The position numbers were made by a program, and so were the translations under genes. The notes under the pieces are model-generated. The model made no database searches, was not told the origin of the DNA, and worked only from the letters and a program-made list of their open reading frames with translations. This document shows positions 5,284 through 11,581 of a stretch of 33,484 nucleotides of DNA, one piece after another (position 1 is the first letter of the stretch; each line of letters opens with the position of its first letter). The stretch comes from a virus. The stretch is from positions 1-33,484 of the IMG/VR virus record IMGVR_UViG_3300007509_000031; one strand, given 5' to 3'.

Positions 5284-6633
5284 ATGGCTAAAAATAAAAC
5301 TTTCGAAACTGCATGGGCTCAAATCATAGAGCAAACAGCAAAAAACTATGATAACAAGCAGGACCACCCAAGTAGTACAAGAATAACCTTTAGGTCCTTA
5401 AGTGAGGCTGAAGTACATGTGGTGGACTTCGGTAAGGTAGCTATGCGTAAAGAGCAGCTATCTGAAGAAGCTCGTAACTTGATTACAAGGTTCCTTTCCA
5501 CTAATGCAGGTTTAAAATATAAAAACAAGCTAACAGACCCTAAGTCTGAACTATCTTTTAGCCAAGTAAAAAGGGAGCTAACCAACTTAAGGGACGAAAT
5601 TAATGGGTGGGAGGCTGCTGCAGGTAATACAAACGTAGCACATAGACGAGACTCTTCAGCATCTGCTAGAGGTATTTTAAAAGCATATACGCATTTAGGT
5701 GTGGGGCTATATGAGTCCGGGGGTATTAATAGCCTCACAATAGGTAAAATGGGCAGCTTAGGGAGAGAACAGCAAGATATTGTAGATATTAATAAAGCCT
5801 TTATACAAAGTAACTCTAAGAAGATAGAAAGTGATGTTATTAAAGCTATGGGAGTATTTAATAAAGTACTAAAAGGCCAAAAAGTACACATACGAACCTT
5901 CGTAAGACAATTAATTAAGGCCAATGCTTCTAACAAGCCTGTACTAACAGTATCTTTAGGTAGTGAGGGATTTAACAAGGCTTTAGGCGGTTTAGAGGGT
6001 AATTTAAATAAAGCTTTAACTAAAGTATTAACAAACTTCACAAAGGAACTGGAAGCCAACCTAGTAAGTAAGTTAGGTGTGGATATTACGGAACTACAGG
6101 CATCTCCTTCCTTAAAAGACAACATAGGTACGGAAATAGTTAATATCTTAGCAGATAAGAAAACTCCCACTAAAGATCTCAATAAGTCTATAAAACCTAA
6201 AGGAATTAAGCTGAAGAAGCCTAGAGTCAAGGCAAAAAACTCTGCTATAAAGGTACTAGCAGCAGTAAAAGGGGCTAAAAAGAAAGGCCAAGTACAAGCC
6301 CAATTGAGTCCTATAGCTCTTAGGCAGTTGTTAAACTCTGCTATTCATGACGCTATACGAAAGAATATGGGTAAGGGTAGAGCTACTAAAGTTTTGAACT
6401 ATCGTACAGGTAGATTTGCACATAGTGTAGATATTAAAAATGTTGTTCAAACTAGAGATGGAGCTACGATGGCTTATTATTCTTATATGAATAATCCATA
6501 TGAGACATTCGCACCAGGAGGCGCTCAATACAATCGAGGCCCTACACGCGATCCAAATTTATTAATTAAAAAGAGTATGAGGCAGATTGCCGCCGCTGCG
6601 GCAATTGTCCGATTCTTCCCACAGGAGGCATAA
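5284..6633 (+). CDS. probable virion/morphogenesis protein (449 aa)
   Basis: Not firmly identified. Mostly helical, lysine-rich protein with a very basic linker near residues 300-325 (KPKGIKLKKPRVKAK). The C-terminal 80 residues have the pattern NYRTGRFAHSV ... YSYMNNPYETFAPGG ... RDPNLLIKKSMRQIA. I associate this with structural or head-tail morphogenesis proteins of tailed phages, from memory of the pattern only. AAAGGAATC precedes the ATG. It is the first gene after the P4 small-RNA element, so expression depends on read-through of that terminator. It is the only structural-looking gene in a window of early functions. It could instead be an ejected internal protein. Confidence 0.45.
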   Translation: MAKNKTFETAWAQIIEQTAKNYDNKQDHPSSTRITFRSLSEAEVHVVDFGKVAMRKEQLSEEARNLITRFLSTNAGLKYKNKLTDPKSELSFSQVKRELTNLRDEINGWEAAAGNTNVAHRRDSSASARGILKAYTHLGVGLYESGGINSLTIGKMGSLGREQQDIVDINKAFIQSNSKKIESDVIKAMGVFNKVLKGQKVHIRTFVRQLIKANASNKPVLTVSLGSEGFNKALGGLEGNLNKALTKVLTNFTKELEANLVSKLGVDITELQASPSLKDNIGTEIVNILADKKTPTKDLNKSIKPKGIKLKKPRVKAKNSAIKVLAAVKGAKKKGQVQAQLSPIALRQLLNSAIHDAIRKNMGKGRATKVLNYRTGRFAHSVDIKNVVQTRDGATMAYYSYMNNPYETFAPGGAQYNRGPTRDPNLLIKKSMRQIAAAAAIVRFFPQEA

Positions 6634-7076
6634 TGAAAATCTTAGTATCAGCATTATTAATTCTAGGTTTAACTGGGTGCTCCCCACTAAGTGTAATAAA
6701 GGGAGATATAGAATCAGTTAAACCTAGAAATCTTATTAAAACAGGAGCAACTACTGCGGTAACTTACGCAGTAGCCGGGCCGATTCCAGCTGCGCTGAAT
6801 TTGGCCACTTCTGTAGCGGTGGATGAAACTTTACCACCGCCTGAACCAGAAGTGCCTGAGATTGATCCTGGAAACAAGGAGCAAATGTGGGCATATATCT
6901 GGAAAGAAACCCAAGAAATGATTTTATATGGGTTTATCGCTTTCCTTCTATTTACTACAGTAGTAGCCCCTTGGGCAGTACAGCGTAGAGCTAGACGTAA
7001 GAGAAAGTACGATCAATATAAGTATGAAGCAAAACTTGCTAGAGAACAAAATGCGCAGAGTAACGAAGGTTCATAG
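6633..7076 (+). CDS. lipoprotein with C-terminal membrane span; predicted unimolecular spanin
   Basis: Signal sequence with lipobox LTGC (C16 would be lipidated), a periplasmic region of about 75 residues with a proline-rich stretch (PPPEPEVPEIDPG, 68-80), then one transmembrane segment at about 97-116 (ILYGFIAFLLFTTVVAPW) and a very basic tail (QRRARRKRKYD). An outer-membrane lipid anchor at one end and an inner-membrane span at the other is the defining topology of unimolecular spanins such as T1 gp11, which fuse the two membranes at lysis. The 147-aa length is suitable. AGGAGG ribosome site; TAATG overlap with the gene before. No endolysin or holin was recognised nearby, so the role stays a prediction. 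Confidence 0.5.
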   Translation: MKILVSALLILGLTGCSPLSVIKGDIESVKPRNLIKTGATTAVTYAVAGPIPAALNLATSVAVDETLPPPEPEVPEIDPGNKEQMWAYIWKETQEMILYGFIAFLLFTTVVAPWAVQRRARRKRKYDQYKYEAKLAREQNAQSNEGS

Positions 7077-7752: not shown

Positions 7753-8217
7753 ATGAAATTTACTTATGATAAAATGCCTGCAATGATGCCTTTACCTATC
7801 CCTACTAAAGATAAAGGATTTTTTGGGGCTATTATTTTATGGATTCTAACAACTAGAAAATGGAAGTTAGTAGAAGATTGGGTTTACAATATTGATGGAA
7901 CACAATATAAAGTTCCTGCAGGATTTGTATTTGATGGAGCTTCAGTTCCTAAATACTTTAGAAGTTGGCTATCTCCAATGGGAGTATTGTTAATTGCAGG
8001 GTTAGTCCATGATTATGGTTACAAACATGCTAAATTGAAGATGTATAATGGTGTAGCTACAGAAGTTAATAATCAAAAATATTTCGATAAGTTATTTAGA
8101 GATATTGCTATTGAAATTAATGGGTTCAAACTTATTAACTACATCGCATATTATGCTCTTAGACTTGGAGGATTTATTGCATGGAGAGGTCATAGAAAGC
8201 GTGATGCAGAGCTATAA
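7753..8217 (+). CDS. DUF1353 family protein (154 aa)
   Basis: Matches the DUF1353 pattern common in phages and prophages: YKVPAGFVFDGASVPKYF (52-69), then LVHDYGYKHA (84-93), a helical region (KLFRDIAIEINGF) and a C-terminal RLGGFIAWRGH. The conserved D61, H86 and D87 suggest a metal or catalytic site, but the biochemical function of the family is not established. No signal peptide; mildly hydrophobic segments near 24-33 and 76-85. Clear ribosome site (AGGAG, 6 nt). In many phages DUF1353 genes sit close to tail or lysis genes, which fits the spanin-like gene upstream. Confidence 0.75.
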   Translation: MKFTYDKMPAMMPLPIPTKDKGFFGAIILWILTTRKWKLVEDWVYNIDGTQYKVPAGFVFDGASVPKYFRSWLSPMGVLLIAGLVHDYGYKHAKLKMYNGVATEVNNQKYFDKLFRDIAIEINGFKLINYIAYYALRLGGFIAWRGHRKRDAEL

Positions 8218-8277
8218 GTTTTTTGATCACAGACCTTGTCGCAATAAAACTATATTAGCGTTTCCTTAAATAATGTC

Positions 8278-8306
8278 TTGACAAATCGGTAAAAATTTGA
8301 TATAAT
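8278..8306 (+). promoter_or_regulatory. promoter P5, sigma-70 consensus
   Basis: TTGACA 8278-8283, TATAAT 8301-8306, 17-bp spacer. The expected start is about 8313. The transcript meets a terminator about 60 nt later. The sequence 8218-8277 between the DUF1353 gene and this promoter holds nothing that I recognise. Confidence 0.9.
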
Positions 8307-8312
8307 ATATTC

Positions 8313-8374
8313 AGATTTTGGGAAATTTCCAAATTTTATTTTTATAGGAGGTCGTAAAAACCCTCCTATTTTTT
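8313..8374 (+). ncRNA. candidate ~62-nt RNA ending in a terminator (leader attenuator or sRNA)
   Basis: Runs from the expected P5 start to a U-tract. It contains TTTTGGGAAATTTCC with the perfect palindrome GGAAATTTCC (8321-8330), then the terminator: ATAGGAGG (8344-8351) pairs with CCTCCTAT (8362-8369), followed by a run of six T's. The 5' arm is itself a full Shine-Dalgarno sequence locked in the stem. Either an independent small RNA or an attenuator upstream of the secreted-protein genes starting at 8424. Confidence 0.5.
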
Positions 8375-8423
8375 GACACAACTATATTAGAATTTGCTAA
8401 TATACTTTTATGAGGAATTTAAA

Positions 8424-8756
8424 ATGACTAAGACTATTTTTACCACTACTATCGCCCTGGCTCTTTTCGCTGGATCTGCTTCTGCATTCTTTGGAAGTGA
8501 CGATAACAATACTGATGGTTACTTTGCTAACAATACTGATGGAGCATTCGATGGCCGCGGACGCGGCAAAGGCTATGGACGCGCTGATGCTGAAGGTAAT
8601 TTTTCTATGACTATCAATGCTTCTGGCTCTGGTAGTTCTAAGATGAACGCTGATATTGACGGGGATACTAATTCTCGCTTTAATGGAGTAAATGATACAC
8701 GATTTGCATCTACTCCACACTACTATGGCCTTGCCCCTTATGGCACAGCCAAGTAA
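8424..8756 (+). CDS. secreted Gly/Asn/Asp-rich protein (110 aa)
   Basis: Clear Sec signal peptide (MTKTIFTTTIALALFAGSASA, cleavage after residue 21 predicted). The mature part is rich in G, N, D and S with low complexity (GRGRGKGYGRADAEGNFSM; INASGSGSSKMNADIDGD) and ends YYGLAPYGTAK. Composition and the GYGR/FSM.../APYG pattern remind me of small secreted proteins annotated as sulfur-globule proteins in sulfur-oxidising bacteria; this is a resemblance, not an identification. ATG 8424 with GAGGA upstream is chosen over a TTG at 8394. It uses more CGT/CGC/GGC codons than neighbours, suggesting high expression. It would act in the periplasm or outside. Confidence 0.6.
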   Translation: MTKTIFTTTIALALFAGSASAFFGSDDNNTDGYFANNTDGAFDGRGRGKGYGRADAEGNFSMTINASGSGSSKMNADIDGDTNSRFNGVNDTRFASTPHYYGLAPYGTAK

Positions 8757-8783
8757 TTTTTTAACAAAATATAGGAAATGATT

Positions 8784-9056
8784 ATGAAGAAAATTTTAGC
8801 AATGGTAACACTTTTAGTAACTGTAGGTTCAGCAAATGCATTTGATATGCCTTGGGACAACGATAACTATGGTTACGAAGATAATGGCATTTTCGCCTTT
8901 AACGGTTATGACTATTTCGATCCTCGTTGGTTCTCAACTGAGTTTACAAATATGATTAATGAGTTTGATGATGATAATGACTATCCAGTGCATACAGCTC
9001 GTGGCACTTATTGGAATCCTGCTTCTACACACAATTTTAGTGTTGTAGAAAAATAA
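8784..9056 (+). CDS. secreted aromatic/acidic protein (90 aa)
   Basis: Sec signal peptide (MKKILAMVTLLVTVGSANA) followed by FDMPWDNDNYGYEDNG. The mature region is rich in N, D, Y, F and W and lacks cysteine. ATG 8784 is preferred over 8778 because AGGA lies 7 nt upstream of 8784 and only 1 nt from 8778. Same signal-peptide layout as its two neighbours, so the three probably act together. The AFDMPW start of the mature chain resembles the secreted sulfur-globule-type proteins mentioned for the preceding gene. Unknown function; exported by inference. Confidence 0.55.
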   Translation: MKKILAMVTLLVTVGSANAFDMPWDNDNYGYEDNGIFAFNGYDYFDPRWFSTEFTNMINEFDDDNDYPVHTARGTYWNPASTHNFSVVEK

Positions 9057-9103
9057 AGAAAGAAGGAGGAGGGAACCCCCTTTAATTTATTATGGAGAAT
9101 ATA

Positions 9104-9325
9104 ATGAAAACTTTATTTTTAGCACTCGCTCTTGTAGTAACATCTGCTTCAGCTAATTGGATGGATGTTTATGATGGTGCATGGTTTGTTCCAGAACCGC
9201 TTACTGAGGAAGAGAATTACCTTATGTTTGATGAGGAACTATATAAGCCTCTACCAGTACTGCTTATAGAGGCAGATCCTGAAGTGGAAGCTTGGCGTGA
9301 AACTAACGGATACTGGGATTACTAA
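9104..9325 (+). CDS. small secreted acidic protein (73 aa)
   Basis: Sec signal peptide (MKTLFLALALVVTSASA) followed by an acidic, tryptophan-containing mature part of about 56 residues (NWMDVYDGAWFVPEPLTEEE ... RETNGYWDY). ATG 9104 is chosen over ATG 9092 because GGAG (9094-9097) is well placed for it. A G/C-rich potential hairpin (AAGGAGG with CCCCCTT, 9061-9082) lies before it but has no T-run. Third of three adjacent genes for small exported proteins. Function unknown. Confidence 0.55.
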   Translation: MKTLFLALALVVTSASANWMDVYDGAWFVPEPLTEEENYLMFDEELYKPLPVLLIEADPEVEAWRETNGYWDY

Positions 9326-9432
9326 TGCAAACACTAAGAGCGATTTACACAATCTGGCTAATGAATTGTCCTTTACCTAGACTATATAGATGGACTAAGG
9401 GGAAGGCTAATGAACGAAGCCTTAACAATTAA
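9325..9432 (+). CDS. 35-aa microprotein
   Basis: Starts in a TAATG overlap with the previous stop and has GGGA about 8 nt upstream. Reads MQTLRAIYTIWLMNCPLPRL then a basic end (YRWTKGKANERSLNN), possibly a short membrane-associated amphipathic helix. Overlaps the next microprotein by 23 nt. Function unknown. Confidence 0.35.
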   Translation: MQTLRAIYTIWLMNCPLPRLYRWTKGKANERSLNN

Positions 9433-9523
9433 ACAGAAGTTATTCATAGGTGTACTAGTTCTACCTCCTGCCGCTGCAATGTTATTAACTTTCATTGTAG
9501 TAGTTTTGGAGCTACTTAGTTAA
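9410..9523 (+). CDS. 37-aa single-span membrane microprotein
   Basis: Reads MNEALTIKQKLFIGVLVLPP followed by a hydrophobic stretch (AAAMLLTFIVVVLELLS). A strong purine-rich ribosome site (AAGGGGAAGG) lies just upstream, supporting translation. The gene ends 23 nt before a strong terminator and is the last of the P5 unit. Function unknown; a small holin-like or regulatory membrane peptide is possible. Confidence 0.45.
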   Translation: MNEALTIKQKLFIGVLVLPPAAAMLLTFIVVVLELLS

Positions 9524-9546
9524 ACACTTAAGGATGAGTAGTTTAG

Positions 9547-9570
9547 CCCCTCTTTTGGGAGGGGTTTTTT
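9547..9570 (+). terminator. intrinsic terminator
   Basis: CCCCTC (9547-9552) pairs with GAGGGG (9559-9564) and is followed directly by TTTTTT. It closes the unit of secreted and membrane microproteins. Confidence 0.85.
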
Positions 9571-9577
9571 ATTGTCG

Positions 9578-9603
9578 AATTTGTTGCGAAAATGCAACAA
9601 ATT
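9578..9603. promoter_or_regulatory. perfect 10-bp inverted repeat upstream of the porin promoter
   Basis: AATTTGTTGC (9578-9587) and GCAACAAATT (9594-9603) are exact reverse complements around GAAAAT. The repeat ends 26 bp before the -35 box of P6 and has no following T-run, so it looks more like a protein-binding site than a terminator. A second dyad, TTTTCG (9645-9650) and CGAAAA (9667-9672), flanks the -10 box itself. Confidence 0.5.
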
Positions 9604-9629
9604 ATTTGCACTTTTACAACAAAAAGTTC

Positions 9630-9658
9630 TTGACATCGAGGTTATTTTCGTGTATAAT
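9630..9658 (+). promoter_or_regulatory. promoter P6, sigma-70 consensus (porin gene)
   Basis: TTGACA 9630-9635, TATAAT 9653-9658, 17-bp spacer. The expected start is about 9665. The -10 region is embedded in dyad symmetry (CGTGTATAATATACG and the outer TTTTCG/CGAAAA), suggesting repression by a dimeric regulator. The gene at 9706 has AGGAG 7 nt before its ATG. Confidence 0.9.
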
Positions 9659-9705
9659 ATACGAGTCGAAAATGACAAATTAATATAATTTTATTAGGAG
9701 TAAAA

Positions 9706-10545
9706 ATGAATAAAAAGTTAATTACAGCAGGTTTAGTAGCTACTACATTAGGTTTAGTAGGCTGTGGAGCAAATGATGCAGAAGCAGGATTTTTCGGATC
9801 TGTAGAGAAAACTTGGAACAACAGTGCCGAAGTTTTAGACACTGAAGATACATATTTAGGTTACACAATTAATGAAGATTTAGGTAATGGCTATTCAGCT
9901 ATTGGTGAATTATCAGTAGATATCGATAGTTCAGTAACAGAGCGTAAGTCTTACGCAGGTATCGCTAATACAGCAGGTCAGGTTGCTTTAGGTAAGCAAG
10001 CATCTGTTCAAGGTTTTGTAGGGGATACTACAATTGATATCTTTGAAGGTCCAAGTTTTGATGTTAATAATGCATCTAACATTGATAATGCCGCTACTGG
10101 TAAGGTCAATTTAGGTAATATCACAGTACTAGGATCTACTATTCCTTCTGCTGGGGATGATTCTTATGAATTAGGTGCTACACTTGATTTAGGTGCTATT
10201 AATTTAGTAGGCGCATATGCAGAAACTTCTGCAGATGTTAAGAATACTATTTTAGGTGCTACAACAAACTACAATGGAGTAGCTTTGGGCGGAACGCTTG
10301 AAACTGAAGAAAGTGCTGCTGGCGTAGAGGTGGATACTGCTACAGTCGTAGCTGCGGTCTCAGCTGGTTCAAACACTTTGAAAAGTGGTTTCCAAGATGT
10401 AGAAAATACTAAGGAAACTTATACTGTAGAGGGAATTCATGACTTCTCTAAGCAGACTTCAGCTTATATCAATTATCAGACTTCAGAGACTGATGCTGGT
10501 GTAGAATCTGATACAACTACTTTAGGTTTCCGCGTTAAATTCTAA
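9706..10545 (+). CDS. phage-encoded Gram-negative porin-like outer-membrane protein (279 aa)
   Basis: The signal sequence has a lipobox-like LVGC (C20) and a possible signal-peptidase site after DAEA (residue 27). The mature chain shows the porin layout: alternating amphipathic beta-strands, ERKSYAGIANTAGQVALGKQ (80-99), comparable with the RqayvGL...fGtvtlGrq motif of Gram-negative porins, then an acidic DTTIDIFEG loop region. The last strand, TTLGFRVKF, ends in F, as needed for outer-membrane assembly by the BAM complex. It is shorter than typical 16-stranded porins (300-370 aa). It has its own promoter and terminator, i.e. a self-contained cassette, as expected for a gene altering the host surface. 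A related precedent is the Lc porin of phage PA-2. Confidence 0.7.
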   Translation: MNKKLITAGLVATTLGLVGCGANDAEAGFFGSVEKTWNNSAEVLDTEDTYLGYTINEDLGNGYSAIGELSVDIDSSVTERKSYAGIANTAGQVALGKQASVQGFVGDTTIDIFEGPSFDVNNASNIDNAATGKVNLGNITVLGSTIPSAGDDSYELGATLDLGAINLVGAYAETSADVKNTILGATTNYNGVALGGTLETEESAAGVEVDTATVVAAVSAGSNTLKSGFQDVENTKETYTVEGIHDFSKQTSAYINYQTSETDAGVESDTTTLGFRVKF

Positions 10546-10565
10546 GCTCAACCCTATGTAGTGAG

Positions 10566-10588
10566 AACCCGCCTTGTGCGGGTTTTTT
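10566..10588 (+). terminator. intrinsic terminator after the porin gene
   Basis: AACCCGC (10566-10572) pairs with GCGGGTT (10578-10584), loop CTTGT, followed by a T-run to 10588. The 85 nt up to promoter P7 hold no recognisable feature. Confidence 0.88.
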
Positions 10589-10673
10589 ATTGTCCAAATT
10601 TTCTCAAGGTTGCGCCTATTACCATCACAGTATAGGTTCCAAATATTACATATGAGTATATAAAAAATATTTC

Positions 10674-10702
10674 TTGACAAATTAGGTTATTTCTAGTATA
10701 AT
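10674..10702 (+). promoter_or_regulatory. promoter P7, sigma-70 consensus
   Basis: TTGACA 10674-10679, TATAAT 10697-10702, 17-bp spacer. The expected start is about 10709. The leader contains ATTTGACAAAT (10711-10721), a perfect dyad with a central A. Confidence 0.9.
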
Positions 10703-10751
10703 ATACGCATATTTGACAAATTTTTAGATTAGCGAAGGAGGTTAGAGTGTT

Positions 10752-11021
10752 TTGAATTGGTACACTTGGTACTTAATATTTGCAATATCAGGAGGTATAA
10801 CTTCCTATTTAGCATTATTTAGTCCAGCTAAACAAATAGCTTTAGAACTAAACCCTTGTTGTGTTTGTTCAACTAATCCTATACTTACAGCAATTATATG
10901 GGTATTACTATCCGCTTTAGTGATACCCGTTTTAATAATACCATTACTTATACCTAGTAAGCAATATATCTTTGTTGCTACACTAGGTAAATCATTAGCA
11001 GAAAGGAGAAAACAAAAATGA
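10752..11021 (+). CDS. polytopic small membrane protein, TTG start (89 aa)
   Basis: Unrecognised. Two or three hydrophobic segments: about 3-22 (WYTWYLIFAISGGITSYLAL), 46-68 (AIIWVLLSALVIPVLIIPLL) and a weaker one between. The middle region has CCVCSTNP and the tail is basic (KSLAERRKQK), so the C-terminus is probably cytoplasmic. The start is a TTG with a full AAGGAGG ribosome site 10 nt upstream; a nearer GTG at 10747 hits a stop after two codons. It overlaps the next gene by 4 nt. Confidence 0.6.
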   Translation: MNWYTWYLIFAISGGITSYLALFSPAKQIALELNPCCVCSTNPILTAIIWVLLSALVIPVLIIPLLIPSKQYIFVATLGKSLAERRKQK

Positions 11022-11227
11022 GTGAAGAAAAAAATGTAATTACAATCGAAGACAAAGAATACACTATAGATGAGTTGACAGACGAGCAAAGAAGTTTAGT
11101 AGGAATTTATAGATCATGGTCTTCAGAACTTAACGAGTTAAGACTAGAAGTAGCGAAAGTTGAAGCAGCGCTAAGAGATTTAACACGCGAAATTACTTCA
11201 TCTGTAACCGAAGAGGTTGAGGACTGA
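11018..11227 (+). CDS. small coiled-coil protein, DUF6447-like (69 aa)
   Basis: The N-terminus has the pattern VITIEDKEYTIDELTDEQRS, followed by a helix (LNELRLEVAKVEAALRDLTR). This matches my recollection of a family of short proteins (DUF6447) in marine phages and cyanophages, in which a beta-hairpin precedes a coiled coil. Function unknown. Starts in an ATGA overlap with the membrane protein gene and has AGGAG about 9 nt upstream; the pair is probably co-translated. Confidence 0.55.
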   Translation: MSEEKNVITIEDKEYTIDELTDEQRSLVGIYRSWSSELNELRLEVAKVEAALRDLTREITSSVTEEVED

Positions 11228-11238
11228 AAAAATAATTC

Positions 11239-11267
11239 TTGACAACTTGGTAAAATTTCTGTATAAT
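11239..11267 (+). promoter_or_regulatory. promoter P8, sigma-70 consensus
   Basis: TTGACA 11239-11244, TATAAT 11262-11267, 17-bp spacer containing TTGGTAAAAT, preceded by AAAAAATAATTC. The expected start is about 11274. Drives 11300-11797. Confidence 0.9.
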
Positions 11268-11299
11268 ATACATTATAAAATCGAAAAAGGAAAAATATA

Positions 11300-11581
11300 A
11301 TGAAAATAATGCAGTTTGACTATCGTAAAAATTCAAATGATACCTCACATAGAGAGTTCATAGCACTTACTACTCCAACTAAGAATTATTTTGGGTTAGA
11401 TATTTCAGAACTTGAAGATGAAGAGGTAGCAGAAGTAGTGTATGGAGTTTCTAGGTTTGACGACTTAATTAAAGAAGCTCTAGAGCACAGAACTCAGTGG
11501 CTAAAAGAAAAAGGTTATGGTACTTATTATCGTAACTTTAGCCCTGAGAAGATGGGAAAAATCATTACCGAGGAACTATAG
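11300..11581 (+). CDS. hypothetical protein (93 aa)
   Basis: Unrecognised. The N-terminal half is beta-type (IMQFDYRKNSNDTSHREFIA; KNYFGLDISELEDEE), the C-terminal half helical with aromatic residues (DDLIKEALEHRTQWLKEKGY; TYYRNFSPEKM). AAGGAAAAA precedes the ATG. It is the first gene of its own strongly promoted unit. No catalytic or metal-binding motif is visible. Confidence 0.6.
   Translation: MKIMQFDYRKNSNDTSHREFIALTTPTKNYFGLDISELEDEEVAEVVYGVSRFDDLIKEALEHRTQWLKEKGYGTYYRNFSPEKMGKIITEEL

Follow-up and report, generated by a model that had tools for sequence, protein, structure and literature searches.

The locus described here lies on a 33,484-base IMG/VR virus contig (G+C = 34.6%), referred to here as the window. 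Its gene content marks the source phage as T5-like: the window encodes a T5 p143-type tail-completion protein (PF25747, 5e-10) and the D2 protein, together with a split NAD-dependent DNA ligase, a DnaB-type helicase, a DNA polymerase, SbcC, and ribonucleotide reductase. The phage is known from metagenomes only. Three more contigs are >99.9% identical to the window over the 14 kb compared, and carry an identical porin; all three stop at the base matching window position 6294, within the p143-like gene, which possibly reflects either a genome terminus or a repeat at which the assembly broke off. Further along are genes for a lipoprotein of phrog_19883 (6633–7076) and for a DUF1353/phrog_1158 protein (7753–8217); DUF1353 relatives are found on numerous IMG/VR phage contigs whose gene content varies. 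A search for tRNA genes as a clue to the host found none, and the closest bacterial porins are only about 30% identical to the phage protein. A SUP05-type host was considered from the low G+C and a related sample (3300001680, from the Kilo Moana hydrothermal plume), and is a candidate only.

The porin gene (P0001, positions 9706–10545, plus strand) encodes a 279-residue product with a terminal F and a predicted 16-strand barrel. It begins with a signal peptide (9706–9765) containing the lipobox LVGC, the cysteine of which (Cys20, codon 9763–9765) is the only one in the protein. The reading frame, its length, the signal sequence, and the final residue are all as the original prediction had described them. 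Upstream on the same strand we read a ribosome-binding site, AGGAG (9696–9700), 5 bases 5′ of the ATG, and a sigma-70 promoter, TTGACA-17-TATAAT (9630–9658), that agrees with the consensus at 12/12 positions. The cassette had been proposed to sit between two terminators, and both indeed fold: an intrinsic terminator ending the upstream unit (9545–9571, with a stem at 9545–9566 followed by a T-run; −14.2 kcal/mol, z −2.9) and a second, AACCCGC-CTTGT-GCGGGTT-TTTT, 3′ of the porin gene (10566–10590; −14.1 kcal/mol, z −4.7), both on the plus strand. An Rfam search of 8200–11300 returned no match.

Three small exported proteins of no known family are encoded at 8394–9325 under one promoter (8278), and their relatives adjoin barrel genes in other phages. 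The first, which we term the FFG protein (8394–8756, plus strand), is matched by orthologues immediately 5′ of the porin gene in two further contigs of T5-like phages, L136 (51% identity) and L211 (59%); its match to sulphur-globule proteins was weak and below the cut-off, and that identification was dropped. The last, which ends in NGYW (9092–9325, plus strand), has similar-looking counterparts directly 5′ of the porin in the same two contigs.

Judged by its relatives, the product of the 9706–10545 frame is a genuine Gram-negative porin. The HMM check that had been proposed, against PF13609 and PF00267, would have failed by itself: P0001 has no match in Pfam at E 10, these two families included, and relatives were needed to make the connection. 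Searches of NCBIfam and PHROGs gave nothing useful, and a first scan of genome contigs gave no match. The orthologue in L136, which is 55% identical to P0001, matches PF13609 over nearly its full length (54.2 bits, 2.5e-14, against a cut-off of 27), and the porin of pelagiphage HTVC008M aligns with P0001 from residue 4 to 279 at 25% identity. The weak matches of P0001 itself were consistently to porins: all three PDB matches found by sequence are Neisseria porins, and all three plasmid matches with an annotated gene are porins as well. A small alignment (A1) led to 13 bacterial loci, of which the six that we checked all encode PF13609 porins. When P0001 was left out of a profile of 11 bacterial porins and then scored with it, it reached 79 bits, whereas the highest of 1000 shuffles reached 11.6; the score is somewhat inflated by the fact that the profile porins were partly picked for their likeness to P0001; the HTVC008M and L136 evidence is less open to this objection. 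The porin-like strand motif noted at the outset, SYAGIANTAGQVALGKQ, is present at residues 82–98, and alignment A2 shows both the EDLGNG...R..y.Gi...G.v.lG pattern of strands 2–5 and a C-terminal strand ending in F. The repeated amphipathic strands that were also invoked are by themselves only weakly supported (shuffle p = 0.08).

These results bear on whether the product could be a structural or lysis protein that merely resembles a porin. Direct evidence for such a role is nil, the nearest hint being the lipoprotein gene at 6633–7076, 3 kb upstream; set against it are homology to porins over the full length and the lack of any match to tail, capsid, or lysis families. We regard this reading as very improbable. 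The best matches are to porins rather than to tail or capsid proteins, and the original identification stands.

Structure prediction points the same way. With a 19-sequence alignment, AlphaFold2 yields 16 strands and an L3 helix (pLDDT 83, pTM 0.75), within the 14–16 strands originally anticipated; the alignment consists of porins and the model depends on it, P0001 as a single sequence having failed to fold. The best PDB matches of the model in Foldseek are V. cholerae OmpU (4.8e-15) and Omp32, and its best viral match is a protein annotated as an OmpC-like porin. The predicted surface loops are strikingly short, at 3–6 residues, except for L1 (11) and L3 (25). The chain is correspondingly compact: the mature protein would have about 252–260 residues, where all chains among the 50 best PDB matches have at least 289, and the frame has 289 codons, where the apparently full-length frames among the bacterial PF13609 matches listed have at least 298.

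The constriction loop itself is predicted to be intact. In the L3 core (residues 109–122, positions 10030–10071 on the plus strand, TIDIFEGPSFDVNN), 13/14 positions (93%) are invariant among the three phage porins, compared with 47% in the strands and 49% in the other loops. Since the L3 core is far more invariant than the strands, selection appears to act on the constriction, or channel, which favors a working pore. The calculated pI of P0001, 4.05, suggests a preference for cations.

The signal peptide suggests an unusual attachment to the membrane. Lipoboxes (LVGC, LTAC, and LTGC), each containing the only cysteine of its protein, are present in all three T5-like phage porins and in 0/38 other porins, bacterial and pelagiphage; the three orthologues also conform to the PROSITE-type bacterial-lipoprotein pattern (a lipobox, K/R in the first residues, and a cysteine at 15–35). 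P0001 is thus probably lipidated N-terminally at Cys20, although an alternative SPase I site, AEA|G (residues 25–27), beside the LVGC lipobox leaves lipidation unproven. The lipobox cysteine is followed by G, S, or A; none of the three has D at this position, which is compatible with sorting to the outer membrane.

To place the gene among related phages, we used the D2 protein as a landmark. A D2 scan gave 80 T5-like loci, L136 among them, and L211 was found by a scan with the P0001–L136 alignment. The porins of L136 and L211 are 55–60% identical to P0001 (59% for L211) and occupy the same place in T5-like phage contigs, with a common gene order: the FFG exported protein, an NGYW-type exported protein, the porin, relatives of the window genes at 11300 and 12181, and D2. 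In 55 of the loci the sequence reaches 4.9 kb or more upstream of D2; of these, only three carry the porin, counting the window’s own phage, and four instead carry, in the same general region, a barrel-like protein of a family that we call A4; one contig covered from p143 to D2 (L132) has neither. The porin is therefore an accessory gene, dispensable inasmuch as some relatives lack any such gene.

The A4 family comprises exported, barrel-like proteins of 286–301 residues with a terminal F, found at L012:7454–8314, L134:6467–7342, L139:1470–2333, and a set of 20 loci in related phages. It has no match in Pfam. Homology of the A4 barrels to porins is not supported (hhalign probability 24%, no PDB match). 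The A4 gene of L012 adjoins relatives of the window proteins at 8778–9056 and 9092–9325; that of L135 (6450–7339) is apparently split between two frames, by a frameshift or an assembly error; and a weak relative occurs in a 1.4-Mb bacterial genome (L234).

The sporadic distribution, together with the cassette’s own promoter and terminator, is what one would see if the porin were a moron, a host-derived passenger gene with no role in infection and kept by chance. However, the three orthologues, at 55–60% identity, all retain frame, length, lipobox, L3 core, and gene order; retention of these features at such divergence would require lasting selection, and we consider the passenger reading unlikely.

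The claim that the cassette has its own promoter is correct in that a perfect TTGACA-N17-TATAAT lies at 9630–9658, but this does not set the gene apart. The window holds 11 such promoters with 17-base spacers (at 568, 2987, 4542, 5135, 8278, 9630, 10674, 11239, 12091, 14494, and 23019), all on the plus strand, where shuffles predict 0.015, and they have in common AAAAATAATTC upstream and a GTATAATATA core. With 11 perfect promoters on one strand, a private promoter is the normal style for this phage. The same applies to the dyad reported over the porin −10 box: CGTGTATAATATACG is there, with 6/7 pairs, but 4/10 of the other promoters score equally, because GTATAATATA is itself the shared promoter element.

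Separate control of the porin is nevertheless plausible, through a different dyad, the position of which is conserved. This perfect 10-bp dyad, AATTTGTTGC-N6-GCAACAAATT (9578–9603), ends 26 bp upstream of the −35 element, just outside the segment originally highlighted (9630–10588), and is followed by an imperfect second copy, TATTTGCACTTTTACAACAA (9603–9622), in a block that is conserved in L136 and L211. All three porin genes are preceded by a terminator, then a dyad, then TTGAC(A/T)-17-TATAAT, and 26–28 bp separate the end of the dyad from the −35 element. The dyad sequences themselves differ, being TTGTTGC-N6-GCAACAA in the window and TGTATCA-N3-TGATACA in L136 and L211. In a redundant set of phage DNA, T5-like and DUF1353-related, that totals 1.62 Mb, TGTTGC-N6-GCAACA and TGTATCA-N3-TGATACA dyads occur at five distinct places, and the gene that directly follows always encodes a barrel: a porin in three cases (window 9578–9603, L136:1752, and L211:7838) and an A4-type barrel in two (L139:1426 and L218:2275). 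Because the patterns were picked from the porin sites, independent evidence comes only from the two A4 cases, and in these the dyad is placed differently, about 20–30 bp 5′ of the start codon rather than ahead of the promoter. Dyads before barrel genes would be explained by a regulator common to them or by a leader element in the RNA. When the phage operators were compared with the promoter of the bacterial A4-like barrel gene in L234, shuffles gave 1/100 for L136, 59/100 for L211, and 35/100 for the window, and the resemblance is only a lead.

Phage-borne porins are already known from lambdoid phages, pelagiphages, and oxygen-minimum-zone viruses (PMC8115048). Among the closest is the “outer membrane porin” of Pelagibacter phage HTVC008M (YP_007517908.1, as annotated by its depositors) with its IMG/VR relatives (58 loci): like P0001, it is a marine phage-borne, PF13609-type protein that is compact (285–289 residues in the HTVC008M type), acidic, and ends in F, but besides its low identity to P0001 it belongs to a T4-like (Kyanoviridae) phage, lacks a lipobox, and lies among late/structural genes. 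The oxygen-minimum-zone phages carry an OmpL-like viral porin of Flavobacteriales type downstream of glnK-amtB (PMC8115048), which resembles P0001 in being marine phage-borne and in forming a unit with promoter and terminator. Bacterial general porins of PF13609 (OmpU, Omp32, and PorB) share its fold, strand motif, and C-terminal strand; P0001 differs from them in its shorter chain, its pruned loops, and its lipobox. Phage PA-2 Lc, originally offered as the precedent, is a sound one in that lambdoid phages including PA-2 do carry 16-strand porins; these are, however, full-size, with roughly 64% identity to the OmpC of E. coli, and P0001 falls outside their subfamily: tblastn with OmpC retrieves 42 phage records at 60–80% identity (lambdoid OmpC/NmpC-type porins, PA-2 Lc), and tblastn with P0001 retrieves none of the 42. 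Within the range of our searches, four features are new: carriage by a T5-like phage, a probable lipid anchor, pruned loops, and a dyad common to unrelated barrels.

These precedents raise the question of superinfection exclusion, in which the phage porin would displace, dilute, or disturb a host porin used as receptor. Such a model has been proposed for PA-2 Lc, and T5 blocks its own receptor, FhuA, by jamming it with Llp, a small lipoprotein of the periplasm that has no barrel (PMC9586334). P0001 shares with Llp a lipobox, a T5-type phage, and a presumptive place at the outer membrane, and its surface loops, the sites at which phages bind, are nearly absent. Yet the 279-residue P0001, with its predicted barrel, is quite unlike exclusion lipoproteins such as Llp and Cor, and conservation is concentrated in the constriction loop rather than in any site of contact at the surface or in the periplasm. 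We view exclusion as possible, with clearly less than an even chance of being the main function; it could also act alongside solute influx.

Our preferred reading, to which we give roughly even chances, is that the cassette supplies a lipidated, loop-pruned 16-strand porin that keeps solute influx going during host shut-down. Host RNA polymerase would transcribe the gene from the cassette’s own strong promoter, and the product would be exported, probably lipidated at Cys20, and folded in the outer membrane as a channel with its constriction loop intact and minimal surface loops. Small-solute influx would then be kept up by the phage porin while host gene expression is shut down (a shut-off that we assume for this phage by analogy with T5), and the pruned loops would leave the porin unable to serve as a phage receptor. 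We prefer an influx pore because the constriction loop is the best conserved part and because a host-silencing phage would need a porin of its own.

On a broader and distinctly tentative view, the region would be an outer-membrane remodelling locus of T5-like phages, in which non-homologous barrels (the lipidated, loop-pruned porin or A4) are interchangeable under a shared dyad operator, maybe one that copies host porin control, and the lipidated porin would represent a new class of pore. Porins control entry into a Gram-negative cell and determine the phages to which it is open; that a T5-like phage brings a porin of its own, pruned of loops and possibly lipid-anchored, suggests that phages rebuild the outer membrane during infection.
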